From: a virus
Strand: one strand, 5' to 3'
IMG/VR virus record: IMGVR_UViG_3300028829_005936
Location: 1 to 28,514 of that record
Length of the DNA: 28,514 nt
Shown here: positions 5,723-28,514 of the stretch, in pieces
How positions within the stretch are numbered: the first letter of the stretch is position 1
Layout: each line of letters starts with the position of its first letter
Made by a program: the position numbers and the translations under genes
Notes under the pieces: model-generated
What the model saw: the letters and a program-made list of their open reading frames with translations, nothing else
The model's database searches: none
What the model was told of the DNA's origin: nothing

Positions 5723-7591
5723 TTAGTCATCTAGTAATGTTCTTAGTTCATCTTCAATTTTACCTAAAGAAGCTCTTCCTTTTGATAGGTCAATTTCAGA
5801 TATACCGTTAATCATATCATTTTCTAATATCATATTTAAATCTTTTTCTGAAGTACTTTCCGGTGTAACCTCAGCCGTAGTGTCACCACCCGTATCCGTA
5901 CCACTATCACCTAAATCACCACCTAAATCACCACCTAAATCACCACCTAAATCACCACCTAAGTCACCTCCAAAATCACTTCCACCACCACCAAATCCGG
6001 TGTCAGAAGGTTCTGTAACCTCACCTTCAGGTGCTCCACCTTCTCCAGGTTTATCACCATATAATTTATCTATATTAGCGAAAATACCTGTTTTACTAAT
6101 CGTTTCAGAGGTTTTTTCAAGTTCCGCACCAACAGCCTTTTCGATTCTTTGTTGTTGTAAATCTAATTTAATTTCTTCATCTGAGAAACCAAGAATATGT
6201 TTTTTAGCCCAAGAAGATGAAACAGGTTGTATACCATTACCTGGGTCAGAAACCGCATCACGGTAAAGTGCCACCTTTTGTTGCCATTGTTCAACTTTAA
6301 GTAAGTCCGCTTGTGTTGATGGGTTGGTAAGTCCTAATGTGAAATTATTTAATTCATCTTCAAACCCTAATAGGTATAAATGAATTATAGCAATTTTATT
6401 TAACTCTTGAATCATAGACTTTTGAATTCTATTGATTGTTCGAGCAAATCTTATATCTTGTAACGCTAAGTTTTTACCATCACCAACAACCTCTTCAAAC
6501 CCTAAAAATGCTTTAGGTACTCTAAGTGCGGTTAATAATTTCTTTTGTATATATTCAATATCAGCAATTTCTGATAAGTTTTGTGCTCCTGGTAATGTGT
6601 CGATAGGGTTAGGTGCGTTAGCATCTCTAACGGGTATGAAGTAATCTTGGTCAACCGCCATTTGATTATATCTTAAATCTACATTACCGTTATTAGAGTC
6701 CACAATTTGGTCTCTTTTAAATTTGTTAGCAACTCTTTGTACGTAAGGTTCGACATCTTTATCATCCATGTTACCTACAAAAACTTTGAATACTCGTCTT
6801 TCAGGTGCTCTTGATGTTCTATAGACTAACATAGCATCTTCAGATAAGATAAGTTGTTTCCATATTCTTCTCGCCTTTTCTAACATAGAAGTACCATAAG
6901 GTAATTTACGGTCATCACCTAATAATCTAAAGTGTGCAACTTCCCACGTATTTAATACCATATCTTTGTTTTGCCATAAGAATTTTAAAGCATCATTATC
7001 GGTATCTGTACTATTTTTTTCAGGTTTAATTTTCATTCCTCGTTCTTGACGAGTAATTTCAATATTAGGTAGTTGTTGTACCCCCATAACCCCTTTCTCA
7101 GGGTCTAATTTTAGATAAACGAAGTTATCCCCATACTTACAAGTATTTCTCGTCCACATAGGTAGATTAGTACTAATATCGAGTCTATTGTTAAATAAAT
7201 CCCCAAGTACTGACTTAATTCGTTTACTTTCTGAGTAAATCTGTAATATAAATCCATCTTCATTTGCTGTTGTTGATTCTTCCCCATATATATCTAACGC
7301 TGCAGATATTTCGGGTGTATATTCCATGCTTTCATAATCATAAAATGAAGCTAGTCTAGTCGGTTCATAATATACCGCTTGAGTATATAAGTTGTTCTCT
7401 ACCTTCTGCCATTGTTGACCGAGATAGAGTGTTTGTTGGGCTTGAAGTTTTTCTCTTTCATACTCCTTCTTATCAGGAGTTTTTAAAAGTTCTTTCTTAT
7501 CAAACTTAAATACGGGAGCTTGTTGGTCTAACGTTGAGTCAGGACCAAATACCTTAGTAAGTCGTTGCCATATAGTATAATTTTCTGCCAT
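5723..7591 (-). CDS. Portal protein, T4 gp20-like
   Basis: Forms the dodecameric DNA entry ring at the head vertex and nucleates head assembly. It is 622 residues. Landmarks include YEPTRLASFYDYESMEYTPEISAALDIY at 75-102, RAPERRVF followed by VGNM at 261-275, a basic helix, QDYFIPVR at 315-322, and DTLPGAQNLSEIADIEYIQKKL at 331-352. These match the gp20 signature 'RAPERR.F..D.GN' and 'TLPGG.NLGE..D..YF..KL'. The last 110 residues form an unusual tail: P/G-rich, then a tandem GGDL repeat (about 541-561), then an acidic end. The late-like motif ends five bases before the ATG. The gene follows the terminase, as expected for a packaging block. Confidence 0.93.
   Translation of the reverse strand: MAENYTIWQRLTKVFGPDSTLDQQAPVFKFDKKELLKTPDKKEYEREKLQAQQTLYLGQQWQKVENNLYTQAVYYEPTRLASFYDYESMEYTPEISAALDIYGEESTTANEDGFILQIYSESKRIKSVLGDLFNNRLDISTNLPMWTRNTCKYGDNFVYLKLDPEKGVMGVQQLPNIEITRQERGMKIKPEKNSTDTDNDALKFLWQNKDMVLNTWEVAHFRLLGDDRKLPYGTSMLEKARRIWKQLILSEDAMLVYRTSRAPERRVFKVFVGNMDDKDVEPYVQRVANKFKRDQIVDSNNGNVDLRYNQMAVDQDYFIPVRDANAPNPIDTLPGAQNLSEIADIEYIQKKLLTALRVPKAFLGFEEVVGDGKNLALQDIRFARTINRIQKSMIQELNKIAIIHLYLLGFEDELNNFTLGLTNPSTQADLLKVEQWQQKVALYRDAVSDPGNGIQPVSSSWAKKHILGFSDEEIKLDLQQQRIEKAVGAELEKTSETISKTGIFANIDKLYGDKPGEGGAPEGEVTEPSDTGFGGGGSDFGGDLGGDLGGDLGGDLGGDLGDSGTDTGGDTTAEVTPESTSEKDLNMILENDMINGISEIDLSKGRASLGKIEDELRTLLDD
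5910..5969 (-). repeat. 12-bp tandem repeat encoding GGDL units in the portal tail
   Basis: Four identical copies and a fifth with two base changes. On the protein they give about five GGDL units, a flexible linker. Slippage between copies could change its length by steps of four residues without breaking the frame. Confidence 0.9.
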
Positions 7592-20508: not shown

Positions 20509-21039
20509 ATGAAAAAGATACTACTAATATTACTAACACTTATTTCTATCGTAAGTCACTCACAGGACTTAGGTAAAATACAAAGACATTTACTGAATTT
20601 AGTAAATGAAGAAAGAGGTAATAGAGGTTTAAGTACTTTTGTAACTGACACACTAATAAATGATGGGGCTAAAATACAAGCTAATTATTTAAGTACAATA
20701 AGAAGTTATAAACAAGTATCCCATACTAACCCTAACTTAAAATATAAAACTCCATCTGATAGAATTAAAATTACGAGTGATTCAAAATATAATATATCAT
20801 CGGAAAATGTGACTATATTTACCTACGACTCATCTAAAACAGATTTAGAAATAGCCACACAAGCACATAATAATTTTATGAATTCAAAATACCATAAAAT
20901 GAATGTTTTAACGGAAAATGGTGACTACTTTAATAGTGGTACTATCTTACCAAGGTACTATGGTCACTATGTAGTTTACAATAAAAGACTGAATGCAATT
21001 ATTGTAGTTCAAATGTTTCCACGTCCAAATTATAATTAA
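20509..21039 (+). CDS. Secreted CAP (SCP/PR-1) domain protein
   Basis: A 176-residue exported protein. Residues 1-19 form a Sec signal peptide (KK, then LLILLTLISIV), with likely cleavage before or after SQ|D, common in Bacteroidota. Residues 24-170 fit the CAP fold: HLLNLVNEERGNRGL at 27-41, SHTNP at 71-75 (H72), SSENV at 97-101 (E99), NNFMNSKYH at 121-129 (H129), and a final strand IIVVQMF. The His-Glu-His cavity residues are therefore present. Bacterial CAP proteins are variously linked to envelope or sporulation functions, and activity is usually unknown. In a phage it might act in the host envelope, for example in superinfection exclusion (inference). The start is chosen to begin the signal peptide. 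The 3' end overlaps the convergent gene by four bases. Confidence 0.85.
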   Translation: MKKILLILLTLISIVSHSQDLGKIQRHLLNLVNEERGNRGLSTFVTDTLINDGAKIQANYLSTIRSYKQVSHTNPNLKYKTPSDRIKITSDSKYNISSENVTIFTYDSSKTDLEIATQAHNNFMNSKYHKMNVLTENGDYFNSGTILPRYYGHYVVYNKRLNAIIVVQMFPRPNYN

Positions 21040-22289
21040 CCCCTTCTTTGATTAGAGAACGTAAAGATTATATCTTTTAAATAAGCGACTTTAATCTTCT
21101 CACCATCCACCACTGTAGTTCTAACGGCAGATTTAGTAGTGATTTTTGGGGAATAGTAACTTATTGGACCATCAGTTGCTGGATTTGGATTACTAGTCCC
21201 TATCATAGGTTCTTTAGTACCTAATATACCAACTAACTTTCCATCAACTATGAAACCACTATCGGTAAGTTTAGCGTCTAAGACACCTTTAAATGACCAA
21301 TCAATACCTAACTCGTCAGCACGTTCAACACTAAGTGCCATGTACCAAGTACCGTTACCATAACTGTCCCAAACTCTATAACCTTCTCTATATTTACCCA
21401 CTCCGTCAGTATAAACAGGAACCATCCACTTTGTCGACTCATTCTTAATCTTTTTACCGGGTGTTTTTGTTCCATCAATTTTTAATTCATTTTTTACTTC
21501 ATGTTCTTCAGCGTTTGGTTCTAAAGTAATTTTTCTGAACTCCTCACCTCTTTTACCTTCACCTTGACCATAGAAGTTATCTCCCTTTTTTACTATTATT
21601 TTTAAATCAAATCCCGTTTTTTCTTTAATTGCGTTAATTAAAGCCTGTGCGTATTGGTTAGCTCTCATATCAGCCAAATACTGATTCATTTCTTTAGGGT
21701 CAGTTTTACCGTTATATGGTTTTGCACTTGGATGGTCTAATTTAGAATACCCGCTTGGTACCTTTAACGTAGGTGTACCTGAATCGGCACTACCTTTAAT
21801 TGTTACGTTAGTTAACTTATCACCTCCGCCCGCATTGATATATTCCTTAAATGTCTCAACAATTTCTGTGAATTGTTGTTTGGCATCAGGGTACTTATCA
21901 AAGTAAGGCATAACCATATTATCCGCATATGGAAGACTACCCCCTTCTATATTATATCTTGGAATAGTAACCATTACGTTAGGTGGTGTTTCTTTACCAG
22001 GCATTTCCTTACCCCCACCGACTAATTTAGTTATGTATCTAATGTCATACTCACCTTCACCTACATTTACGGCTAATGGGTTTGTAGGGTTAACATCAAA
22101 GTTAAGTGGACCGGAAACTTTCTGATTCCAATTTTCGGACCTACCCTTCTGTTCATATTTCTTTCGGTCTCGATTAGTGAACTTTTTTTTCTTTCCGTAA
22201 CCCAAGTCACCTCTTTTTTGTTCTTCAATTACTTTTTTTACGATATTTTCAATATCACCTTCCGTTAACTTTATATTCTTTTTATCCAT
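21036..22289 (-). CDS. Putative virion protein with OmpA-like region
   Basis: A 417-residue protein. Residues about 155-258 resemble an OmpA/MotB-type domain: NVTIKGSADSG (161-171), then YLADMRANQYAQALINAIKEKTG (204-226), then FRKITLEPN (251-259), following the 'G.AD..G ... N..LS..RA..V...L ... R.V.I' pattern. This domain usually binds peptidoglycan, though the insertion between the first strand and helix is long. The N-terminus (NIKLTEGDIENIVKKVIEEQ) has L-T-E-G at 8-11, fitting the prohead protease rule. The C-terminal 140 residues contain a WMVPVYTDG ... YRVWDSYGNGTWYMALS segment of unknown type. A late-like motif is ten bases upstream. Binding cell wall during entry or lysis would fit, but is inference. 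Confidence 0.72.
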   Translation of the reverse strand: MDKKNIKLTEGDIENIVKKVIEEQKRGDLGYGKKKKFTNRDRKKYEQKGRSENWNQKVSGPLNFDVNPTNPLAVNVGEGEYDIRYITKLVGGGKEMPGKETPPNVMVTIPRYNIEGGSLPYADNMVMPYFDKYPDAKQQFTEIVETFKEYINAGGGDKLTNVTIKGSADSGTPTLKVPSGYSKLDHPSAKPYNGKTDPKEMNQYLADMRANQYAQALINAIKEKTGFDLKIIVKKGDNFYGQGEGKRGEEFRKITLEPNAEEHEVKNELKIDGTKTPGKKIKNESTKWMVPVYTDGVGKYREGYRVWDSYGNGTWYMALSVERADELGIDWSFKGVLDAKLTDSGFIVDGKLVGILGTKEPMIGTSNPNPATDGPISYYSPKITTKSAVRTTVVDGEKIKVAYLKDIIFTFSNQRRG

Positions 22290-24482: not shown

Positions 24483-24977
24483 ATGAGTTCAGTATTAGTT
24501 TTAAACTCAGACTACTCCCCACTCAACGTAACATCACTTAAAAGGGGATTCGTATTAGTAGATAAGGGTAAGGCAGAAATCATAAAAAAGGGGGAGACCG
24601 ACATCATTACAACGATTGGTAACTTCGCACGTCCAATAATTATTAGACTTTTAGATTACATAAAATATCGACCTAAGACTATTAAAGTTAATAGAAAGAA
24701 AATATTAAAAAGAGATAGATACACATGTCAATACTGTGGTTCTAAAAGAAATCTAACAATAGACCATGTAATACCACGTTCAAAAGGAGGTAAAAATACT
24801 TGGAGTAATTTAGTGAGTTGTTGTTTCAGGTGTAATTCTAAGAAAGGTGATAAAACACTGTCAGAATCAGGTATGAAGTTAAAATCTAAACCATATACTC
24901 CAAATTTATTTTCTAATATTGTAAATGAAGATGTCGAAAATATATGGAATGACTTTATTAAAAAAATCTATAAATAA
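24483..24977 (+). CDS. HNH endonuclease
   Basis: A 164-residue nuclease. The N-terminal 60 residues (VLVLNSDYSPLNVTSLKRGFVLVDKGKAEII) are the typical lead-in of a common HNH family. The HNH core is C82-QY-C85, LTIDHVIPRSKGG (D94-H95), WSNLVSCC (N109) and C117-NSKKGD, with four zinc-ligand cysteines of treble-clef type. It could be a homing-type or host-DNA-cutting enzyme, or part of packaging; free-standing HNH genes near phage structural genes are common. No clear promoter is seen. The end lies just before a terminator. Confidence 0.9.
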   Translation: MSSVLVLNSDYSPLNVTSLKRGFVLVDKGKAEIIKKGETDIITTIGNFARPIIIRLLDYIKYRPKTIKVNRKKILKRDRYTCQYCGSKRNLTIDHVIPRSKGGKNTWSNLVSCCFRCNSKKGDKTLSESGMKLKSKPYTPNLFSNIVNEDVENIWNDFIKKIYK

Positions 24978-25645: not shown

Positions 25646-26293
25646 TTAATCTTGTTTTTTCCAAACATGAAACGTTTCTGTAAATTCGGAACTTTTCACT
25701 TTTGTCTTTTTATAGTTTGAGTCTTCAACAGGTCTCTTAAATAAATATCCCTGACCTTTAAGTTTTTCTAATATCTCTTTTTGTTTTTTTGTAAAATCAT
25801 TACCAACCTCATCAGAACTAACCAAAGATGCTAACCCTTTAAGTTCTTTTTGTTTCATAACTTCCTCATAAGGTTCTTCTTTAACTGGTTGATTAACTAC
25901 TAATTTAGGTTCTTCTACCTCAACCTCCTTTTTAAATTCAATATCTTTATTGATATCTCCTTTAACTATTTCAAAATCCCTATCATCAGGACCATCGTTA
26001 TTTTTAATTGAGAAGTACTGTGTCCCTACAAGACCACCTAATCCTTTTTCCTCACCAAACCCTAAATTAACATTAGAATCTTTTGGATATGAACCTAATT
26101 TAATTAGTTGACCATCTTCTTTATCGGAACCCTTAGCTCTTACTACGGCCATAACAAAACCTCTGTCACCAACAATATTTTGACTATGTAAGTCTTTCAA
26201 ATGTTGTTCGATATCTCTTTTATCTTGTAAATCAAATATTACTCTTTCTTTACCTTTTTCTGAAACAGTATAAAAATATATGTCTCTTAACAT
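25646..26293 (-). CDS. Hypothetical protein
   Basis: A 215-residue protein I do not recognise. Residues 1-110 look like a compact domain (MLRDIYFYTVSEKGKERVIFDL, then VGDRGFVMAVVRAKG, then GGLVGTQYFSI). Residues 110-155 are an acidic and proline-containing linker (VEVEEPKLVVNQPVKEEPYEE), and the C-terminal 50 residues are basic. Its start codon lies within the 3' remnant of the upstream broken gene, with 44 bases of overlap in another frame, suggesting tight translational coupling before the upstream gene was disrupted. Confidence 0.7.
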   Translation of the reverse strand: MLRDIYFYTVSEKGKERVIFDLQDKRDIEQHLKDLHSQNIVGDRGFVMAVVRAKGSDKEDGQLIKLGSYPKDSNVNLGFGEEKGLGGLVGTQYFSIKNNDGPDDRDFEIVKGDINKDIEFKKEVEVEEPKLVVNQPVKEEPYEEVMKQKELKGLASLVSSDEVGNDFTKKQKEILEKLKGQGYLFKRPVEDSNYKKTKVKSSEFTETFHVWKKQD

Positions 26294-26567
26294 GTAAAGA
26301 TGTTGTGAAGTATTCTGTTAGTTTAATCCATCCTGATTGACCACCTTCCTTTTCGTCATCATAAAAAAACCATTCACCATTTTCTTTCTTTAATTTAAAT
26401 GGTTTATATTTACCATTTTCAACTCTACTTTCACCCTGAAAAAATAATTCACCATTATTATCAAATAACGAGTCTTTAATTATTTTAGGTTGAGTATCAC
26501 CTGATTTATTTTTCCATATTGGAAAATCATCTATAATGGCACTTTTTTTAAATTTAGTACATATACC
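26250..26567 (-). pseudogene. Detached 3' part of the 26531-27124 gene
   Basis: This 105-codon stretch is open to TAA at 26250. It continues the protein of 26531-27124 in its original frame if one copy of the 65-bp repeat is removed. It reads on from IWKNKSG to 'LFFQGESRVENG ... GEWFFYDDEKEGGQSGWIKL', clearly protein-like, with no start codon of its own near its beginning. It is either dead or reached by a -1 frameshift at the A7 run in the repeat. Without the duplication the whole protein would be 269 residues. Confidence 0.7.
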
Positions 26568-26632
26568 GATTTATTTTTCCATATTGGAAAATCATCTATA
26601 ATGGCACTTTTTTTAAATTTAGTACATATACC
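26503..26632. repeat. Exact 65-bp tandem duplication that shifts the frame
   Basis: Copies at 26503-26567 and 26568-26632 are identical. Since 65 is not a multiple of three, the second copy in translation is read out of frame and ends at TAG 26531. Each copy contains a run of seven A on the minus strand (26543-26549 and 26608-26614). Exact identity means a recent event or an assembly error. Confidence 0.97.
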
Positions 26633-27124
26633 ACCATTTTCTATTACGGGTTTACAGAATTTTAAACTGGCTTTGGTTGACGTTATACTACCTTCACTGT
26701 CGGTACATGCAATACAAAAATTAGATTTCCAATTAGTAGTTGAAGAATTATCATCATTTTCATCATTGTCATCATTGTCATCATTAGGAGTGGGAGGTGG
26801 CGTGGGAGTCGTGTCATCACTTATATCAAATATACCCTCACATGCCACTAATTTGGCAGAACGTTGGCAACATGTCCAATACCCAATTTTCTCTGAATCC
26901 ATGTTTTTACCCTCCCCATGGATTACTTTTCCTGATGAGAGTGTTACTGGTTTATCATAAACGGTGAATTCGTATTTTTTTCCATTATTTTTTCCAATTG
27001 CCGTAATCTTTTCGTTACCTGCACCACCTACAACCTTCATATCCTTATACTGGATACAATTATTATCAATTGCGTACTGTAACCTCTTCGCCTTGATAGT
27101 TGTTTCTTGTTCTTGTATATTCAT
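26531..27124 (-). CDS. Truncated protein of unknown function
   Basis: A 197-residue product whose C-terminus is replaced by an out-of-frame VYVLNLKKVPL after a tandem duplication. Residues 1-105 form a domain with IDNNCIQYKDMKV, VTLSSGKVIHGEGK and YWTCCQRSAKLVACEGIF. Residues 108-130 are a linker of TPTPPPTP followed by an N/D-rich run. From about 131 there is a second cysteine-containing domain (NFCIACTDSEG, then FCKPVIENGGICTKF) that continued into the detached 3' part. Linked domains and a low-complexity hinge suggest a virion surface or tail-associated protein, but the family is unknown. It starts 11 bases after the upstream stop and is co-transcribed with 27135-28514. Confidence 0.65.
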   Translation of the reverse strand: MNIQEQETTIKAKRLQYAIDNNCIQYKDMKVVGGAGNEKITAIGKNNGKKYEFTVYDKPVTLSSGKVIHGEGKNMDSEKIGYWTCCQRSAKLVACEGIFDISDDTTPTPPPTPNDDNDDNDENDDNSSTTNWKSNFCIACTDSEGSITSTKASLKFCKPVIENGGICTKFKKSAIIDDFPIWKNKSVYVLNLKKVPL

Positions 27125-27134
27125 ATTATTATTA

Positions 27135-28514
27135 TTAAAATTCTACAGTTCCTGCATCAGCATTTTCTATCTCTGCAAGAGCTTTATTTAACCTTTCCAT
27201 AATAGTTTCATCACTATCTAAAATGTAACCTAAGTATTTTTCCACAACACCCTCAGCATCCTTTTGTACTTGGTTTAACATTTTTAATCTCTCCTCAGAG
27301 GACGCGTTTTTGAACTCATCACTTTCTCTTATTGTATTAATTCTTTCAAATTGTTGTTTAAAGTAATCAGCACCACCACCAGTTTTTGAGGTTTCGTCCA
27401 AAACTTGCTTTACCGCCCATATAGGTACGGTAACATCAAATCTTTTAAGAGTATTATTAAGAAGATTAGCTAAAAAATCCACACTCCAATGGAGACTATC
27501 GTAATCTTTATAGTCACCCGCCCCTCCTACTCCTAAAATTCCAGGGTTCTGCATAGTTTTAGCTAATTCAGGATGGTCCTCAAGCCATTGTGGGGTTATT
27601 TCGGTCGTAGGATTACTTGTCATCGAACTATAGTCCACAAGGGATTCAAACATACCGAGAACTAAAGGTAAACCCAACAATCTTGACCCAATCTCAGTAC
27701 TTAGAATACGACCTAACTTTTTTGGGCTGTTGTAGAGTTTTTTAATTACTTGTACTACATCACCAGTCATAAGTCTAAAAAACGCGTTACCATATCCAAG
27801 TTTTTTTATTCTTGCTTTAGCAACATCACTTCTTAAAATTGACGCTTTCTCAGGCCAGAATTTTCTGAAAGCATCAACTCTTCGGTTACGTAAATCAAGT
27901 ATTTCCTTTAAGTAACTTTCTTCAGGCTTATACGAACCATCAGGTAAATAATCAAGTATACTAAGAACATCGGCATCTCCTGATTTTAATTTTGTAATAA
28001 CACCATTGAGTTTTACTCTTTCAGGTGATTTTTTAGGTAACTTGTTACTTTTCTCACTAAGTTCTTCTATTAAAGCACTTATAGCTTCTTTATTTTTTCT
28101 ATTTAAAATACCTAAATTCATTTCCATTCGTTGCACAAATCTATTGGCCTTTGTTATAGCATTCATTTTAGCTTGTCCTGTTAATTTACTGGCCTCTTTT
28201 CTTAAAGCGATATAACTATCAACATCTTTTATTATATTTTCACTATATTTTGAATATCTTTTAAGATAACTGATTAATACTTCTTTAAATTTAACCAATT
28301 TACCTATAGTTCCACCTTCTTTAGATATTTTTGTAACGGCAACTTCTAATGCTTCTTTAAATTGATTTTTTGAAAACCCAGGGATGGACTTAAAGAAATA
28401 CTCGTCTTTTATGAAACGTTCAAGTGACTCATCCCCCCATTTAGCAATTTTTTTAAACTCTTTGTCAAAGTATCCTGCCGCAGCGATTGTTTGGTCGTTT
28501 TTTACTAAACTTTC
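27135..28514 (-). CDS. Large hypothetical phage protein (N-terminus outside window)
   Basis: The frame is open from the window end to TAA at 27135, giving 459 visible residues. No in-frame ATG is seen in the 5' part, and a TTG at 28298 is only an internal leucine, so the gene starts beyond 28514. The sequence is helical and charged, with a basic segment, one hydrophobic stretch (IGSRLLGLPLVLGMFESLV, about two thirds along) that might be a membrane helix or buried helix, and a coiled C-terminus. I do not recognise a domain. Length, helical content and one hydrophobic helix would suit an ejected internal virion protein, which is inference only. Confidence 0.75.
   Translation of the reverse strand, partial: ESLVKNDQTIAAAGYFDKEFKKIAKWGDESLERFIKDEYFFKSIPGFSKNQFKEALEVAVTKISKEGGTIGKLVKFKEVLISYLKRYSKYSENIIKDVDSYIALRKEASKLTGQAKMNAITKANRFVQRMEMNLGILNRKNKEAISALIEELSEKSNKLPKKSPERVKLNGVITKLKSGDADVLSILDYLPDGSYKPEESYLKEILDLRNRRVDAFRKFWPEKASILRSDVAKARIKKLGYGNAFFRLMTGDVVQVIKKLYNSPKKLGRILSTEIGSRLLGLPLVLGMFESLVDYSSMTSNPTTEITPQWLEDHPELAKTMQNPGILGVGGAGDYKDYDSLHWSVDFLANLLNNTLKRFDVTVPIWAVKQVLDETSKTGGGADYFKQQFERINTIRESDEFKNASSEERLKMLNQVQKDAEGVVEKYLGYILDSDETIMERLNKALAEIENADAGTVEF

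Follow-up and report, generated by a model that had tools for sequence, protein, structure and literature searches.

A recent tandem duplication and a deletion have probably disrupted an uncharacterized gene in what we read as a T4-like phage, and the slippery run of adenines associated with the duplication is probably incidental. Under this reading, a 65-bp tandem duplication would shift the frame of the gene so that its protein ends at 197 aa, and a 59-bp deletion nearby, in the same gene and on the same contig, would cut the gene a second time. Together the lesions would disrupt what is a single gene of 355-470 aa in relatives. They would leave a shortened N-terminal protein and, apart from it, a 215-aa C-terminal open reading frame (ORF); the deletion puts an ATG in frame with this ORF, from which it may or may not be translated. 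The A7 heptamer would be an ancestral lysine-coding sequence that the duplication put into slip phase by happenstance. If the lesions are real, this phage either can do without the gene or tolerates its being split, and they would be informative about an uncharacterized conserved family in T4-like environmental phages. The case is additionally an example of how comparison with relatives alters a reading.

The phage fragment and its relatives

The window, meaning the whole stretch of DNA analyzed, is a 28,514-base (28.5 kb) fragment from an IMG/VR virus record. Its genes include those for a major head protein, a large terminase subunit and a Peptidase_S77 head maturation protease, which is why we take it to be part of a T4-like phage. 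The best-ranked records for the terminase are Flavobacterium phages at just 26% identity, which makes the host no more than a guess. Neither half of the broken gene has a match in Pfam, and PHROGs gave weak matches of unknown function alone (the best being phrog_5337, E 0.0054, for the 197-aa ORF). The C-terminal domain matched nothing among 50,697 phage records or in genome_contigs, and the broken gene had no DNA-level match in the phage records. An AlphaFold2 prediction of the C-terminal domain from five sequences was poor, with a mean pLDDT of 46 and a pTM of 0.31.

Three protein queries located relatives on five contigs: 3300037631_005014 (G001), 3300048113_001121 (G002), 3300047380_001399 (G003), 3300027813_000005 (L022) and 3300018876_000008 (L018/L023). 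G001-G003 were found by all three queries and L018/L023 by the middle and C-terminal queries; only the C-terminal query detected L022. Over 37.5 kb, G002 and G003 share 99.97% identity and are almost one phage, so the five contigs represent four lineages. An alignment query for distant relatives of the C-terminal domain returned the same five contigs and found no free-standing form of the domain.

From base 1 up to about 26786, the window and G001-G003 are collinear, with identities mostly in the range of 94-98%. Each of the five contigs carries the gene as one ORF, 355-470 aa long when counted from the first methionine, that holds one copy of the 65-bp unit, lacks the deletion, and passes through a linker into the equivalent of the next ORF of the window at 25646-26293. 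Uninterrupted homologues in the relatives and frame-breaking lesions in the window, the marks of a disrupted gene, are thus both present. The initial annotation had proposed that the duplication breaks a gene, and the relatives bear this out. Its predicted protein of 269 residues, reached with one copy of the unit, was a correct calculation from the ORF coordinates, as were its 197 residues for the truncated form and 291 for the product of a -1 slip; the 269-residue protein is nevertheless not the original gene, which in the relatives runs on into the next ORF.

Homology to the three near relatives breaks off partway through the gene, near 26786, where it encodes an acidic linker of NDDNDD type. 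The upstream gene at 27135-28514 resembles, by eye, one in L018/L023 and is unlike that of G001-G003. Because homology to the near relatives ends at about 26786 and the upstream gene resembles that of L018/L023, the N-terminal module of the gene seems to have been exchanged by recombination. The truncated 197-aa ORF lies at 26531-27124 on the minus strand, and it opens with this module, absent from the three near relatives, which occupies the part beyond about 26786.

Two lesions within one gene

The 65-bp tandem duplication reported by the initial annotation at 26503-26632 is present: bases 26503-26567 and 26568-26632 are identical over all 65 bp, and the period-65 identity ends sharply at the boundaries 26503 and 26632. 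On the minus strand, along which the gene runs, the copy at 26568-26632 is read first and the copy at 26503-26567 second. The unit amounts to 21 codons plus 2 bases. When we scanned for exact tandem duplications with periods of 20-300 and a match run of at least 0.9 of the period, the window yielded two, the 65-bp duplication and a codon array of 24-bp period at 5908-5962. The same scan yielded none in 50.3 kb of G001, 60 kb of G002, 40 kb of G003, or the loci L018 and L023, and one short duplication of period 21 in L022. The 65-bp duplication is not a chance repeat, because exact tandem duplications are nearly absent from the scanned window and relatives. Both copies share a window-private base (an ATA to AAA codon change in the ancestral frame) that G001 and G002 lack. 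Because this base sits in both copies, the duplication postdates the substitution and is young, in agreement with the young mutation suggested at first.

After the duplication, the ancestral frame, which is not that of the 197-aa ORF, continues at 26250-26570 (minus strand), and this continuation is 96-97% identical to the three near relatives and 57% identical to L018. It ends at 26250 owing to a second lesion that was invisible to the initial annotation. At 26290/26291 (minus strand) the window lacks 59 bp found in every relative located, which removes a linker reading ENKLFEQKEMKSISDKIEEK or near-identical in the relatives. The deletion lies 212 bp downstream of the second-read copy in the direction of the gene, which places the two lesions 277 bp apart. 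Their sum, +65 and -59, is a multiple of three, and the stretch between them soon meets a stop in the frame read. Comparison with sister genomes, which the initial annotation had proposed as a check, confirmed the break through the single copy in all five contigs and also exposed the lesion that undoes rescue by a slip or by loss of a copy.

Compared with G002, every other coding indel in bases 1-26786 is a multiple of three, belongs to a compensating pair (10128/10134 and 21863/21868) or lies at a gene end (5712, 21020/21024 and 22787), so that the +65 and -59 changes are the only internal uncompensated ones over 26.8 kb. The gene at 21036-22289 has diverged too far from G001 for its indels to be counted. 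We infer that both lesions are real mutations that inactivate or split the gene; their proximity would be understandable because, once a gene has been damaged, further damage to it is tolerated. The gene resembles a phage pseudogene produced by tandem duplication plus deletion, in that it carries frame-breaking lesions and is uninterrupted in all five relative contigs. It differs in that the lesions differ by 6 bp and leave the net frame unchanged with an unreadable stretch between them, and in that the C-terminal ORF stays open with an ATG of its own.

An unlikely but appreciable alternative is a local assembly artefact, in which the sampled phage would have a single copy and no deletion, mixed strains having been mis-joined at this place by the assembler. 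Two frame-breaking lesions in so short a distance, on a contig otherwise without internal uncompensated breaks relative to G002, would fit such an error, and the module boundary near 26786 is just upstream; strain mixtures are hard to assemble at such boundaries. Both junctions lack flanking microhomology, a less common situation in duplications and deletions that arise spontaneously and one that counts against real lesions. Neither junction was found in any other viral_contigs record, in a search that may leave out records very near the window, and this too weighs against lesions carried by a phage population. On the other side, both junctions are clean, the surrounding sequence is free of errors, and the flanks of the deletion are 97-98% identical to the relatives. 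A k-mer size of 65 is not known to be a default of common assemblers, which also speaks against an artefact.

The C-terminal domain

The 215-aa ORF at 25646-26293 (minus strand) encodes what was, in the ancestral gene, the conserved C-terminal domain, and is opened by an existing ATG that the deletion brought into frame. This domain is the most conserved part of the gene, and the sequences of four relatives are 86-99% identical to that of the window. Because the codon changes found only in the window comprise 9 synonymous and 1 non-synonymous in this domain, it appears to have been under selection until recently, or to be so still. Between the lesions there are 1 synonymous and 2 non-synonymous changes of this kind. 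As a gauge of relaxed selection following the break, the changes in both stretches are too few, and they may predate the lesions. The upstream context of the new ATG is middling, with a score of -1.6 that 16% of 1033 window ATGs equal or exceed. Only 6 of 21 window start codons have so much as a loose Shine-Dalgarno match upstream.

These observations bear on an adaptive fission of the gene, in which the C-terminal domain acquires a start codon through the deletion and each half functions as a protein by itself. This overlaps with the reading we prefer, recent gene damage, which allows for translation of the C-terminal ORF or its absence. Fission is favored by the in-frame ATG, which stands immediately ahead of the most conserved domain, and by the excess of synonymous changes in that domain, although the purifying selection may wholly predate the deletion, the start context is unexceptional, and the first half is still truncated by the upstream duplication. 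The lost linker, TTSLHENKLFEQKEMKSISDKIEEKLRDIYF and close variants in the relatives (L015:4278-4336 and homologues), carries the motif [LI]xEQ in all five relatives, and the window has a Peptidase_S77 gene. T4-like prohead proteases cut after a glutamyl residue, and [LI]xEQ resembles such sites (PMC9026906). The idea of cleavage is one of motif resemblance, and on balance we consider fission improbable.

Peptides of the [LI]xEQ type also occur near the N-terminus of several neighboring ORFs in the window and its relatives (LMEQ and LFEQ). As a lead from motif resemblance, such peptides may be a sign of processing by the prohead protease. A fuller scheme can be drawn in which a proteolysis-like linker was lost, the C-terminal domain gained its own start, and an A7 slip yields a minor, longer first half, the protein of the relatives being perhaps cut by the prohead protease; we hold this combination to be more doubtful still than fission as such.

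The slippery A7 run

In the second-read copy, the A7 run at 26543-26549 (minus strand) begins at a third codon position of the 197-aa frame, TTA AAA AAA GTG, and with the following G (26549-26542) is phased as A_AAA_AAA_G, as the initial annotation had stated. The corresponding run of the first-read copy, at 26608-26614 (minus strand), has the computed phase TTT AAA AAA AGT. The single copy in the three near relatives holds the same A7, which there codes for lysine in a different, non-slip phase. We simulated 20,000 duplications of 65 bp over the 22 listed window ORFs, two of which were shorter than 400 bases and were weighted zero; 6.4% yielded A_AAA_AAR before a stop and 14% any X_XXY_YYZ. 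In-frame A_AAA_AAR occurs 18 times in the 7,367 codons of these ORFs. The slippery site is unremarkable because 6.4% of simulated duplications in this AT-rich window produce one, and the data are compatible with an ordinary by-product of duplication that arose by chance and is possibly weakly slippery. It is a small example of how readily an indel in AT-rich phage DNA makes a 'slippery' site by chance.

Some low-level slippage at A7 is likely on general grounds. It was first proposed that a -1 slip returns ribosomes to the original frame, and this holds up to the deletion at 26290/26291; beyond it the product acquires a short foreign tail and stops at 26250, before the conserved 215-aa domain. 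Slippage at A7 therefore cannot rebuild the ancestral protein.

We regard programmed or otherwise useful -1 slippage that rescues the gene as very improbable. An X_XXY_YYZ heptamer stands in the 0 frame ahead of the stop, with the correct phase, and the 110 nt from A7 onward fold somewhat better than shuffled sequences (z -2.2 against 200 shuffles, 6/200 as good; -2.0 in a repeat), but a z as low as this was reached by 8 of 150 coding segments drawn at random from the window. The product does not restore the conserved protein, and the site is not conserved, all five relative contigs having one copy and an uninterrupted ORF. A programmed frameshift was rejected as the main reading on account of the second lesion, the null model and this absence of conservation.

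Ribosomal -1 frameshifting at A_AAA_AAR is known from dnaX. The same heptamer and phase are used by insertion sequences, among which a proven A_AAA_AAA case is mentioned, and A_AA.A_AA.G is placed among the most efficient motifs in E. coli when a stimulator is present (PMC4066793), which counts for a rescue. In contrast to the insertion-sequence and dnaX systems, the window offers no convincing stimulator and no conservation, and the product falls short of the conserved domain. Slippage that compensates an indel (PMC5009743; PMC4256274, tssM of Citrobacter rodentium) likewise involves a frame-breaking change followed by an A run, but here a second lesion lies downstream and one slip fails to recover the gene.

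Recombination or slippage can remove a tandem copy, and the initial annotation had suggested a phase-variation-like switch in which loss of one 65-bp copy restores the gene. A switch of this kind, worked by gain and loss of the copy, is scarcely credible: the 59-bp deletion would remain after copy loss, with the same end at 26250 and the C-terminal domain missing, the copy number is constant at one in all five relative contigs, and the further viral_contigs records with the junction that it predicts were not found. These same points, the second lesion, the constant copy number and the absence of the junction elsewhere in viral_contigs, led to its rejection as the main reading. The precedent for it, a reversible duplication plus inversion within agrC of S. 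aureus, shares a duplication inside a coding gene (PMC6686034), and differs in that here no sign of reversal was seen and copy loss would leave the gene unrestored.

Elsewhere in the window, an HNH endonuclease gene at 24483-24977 (PF14279, PF01844) is replaced in G001-G003 by an unrelated 60-bp stretch, and a very similar HNH gene stands at the corresponding place in the more distant L018/L023. Because it is replaced in the near relatives yet present in the more distant ones, this distribution suggests a mobile or lost endonuclease. At 1624-2097, in-frame 63-bp repeat arrays (KKGDDSKSHKDYEESNEE-like) form part of an acidic protein whose gene lies between those for the head protein and the head maturation protease. 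In the ORF at 5723-7591, in-frame 12-bp repeats at 5908-5993 encode a GGDLGGDL stretch, and G001-G003 have one such unit fewer than the window.
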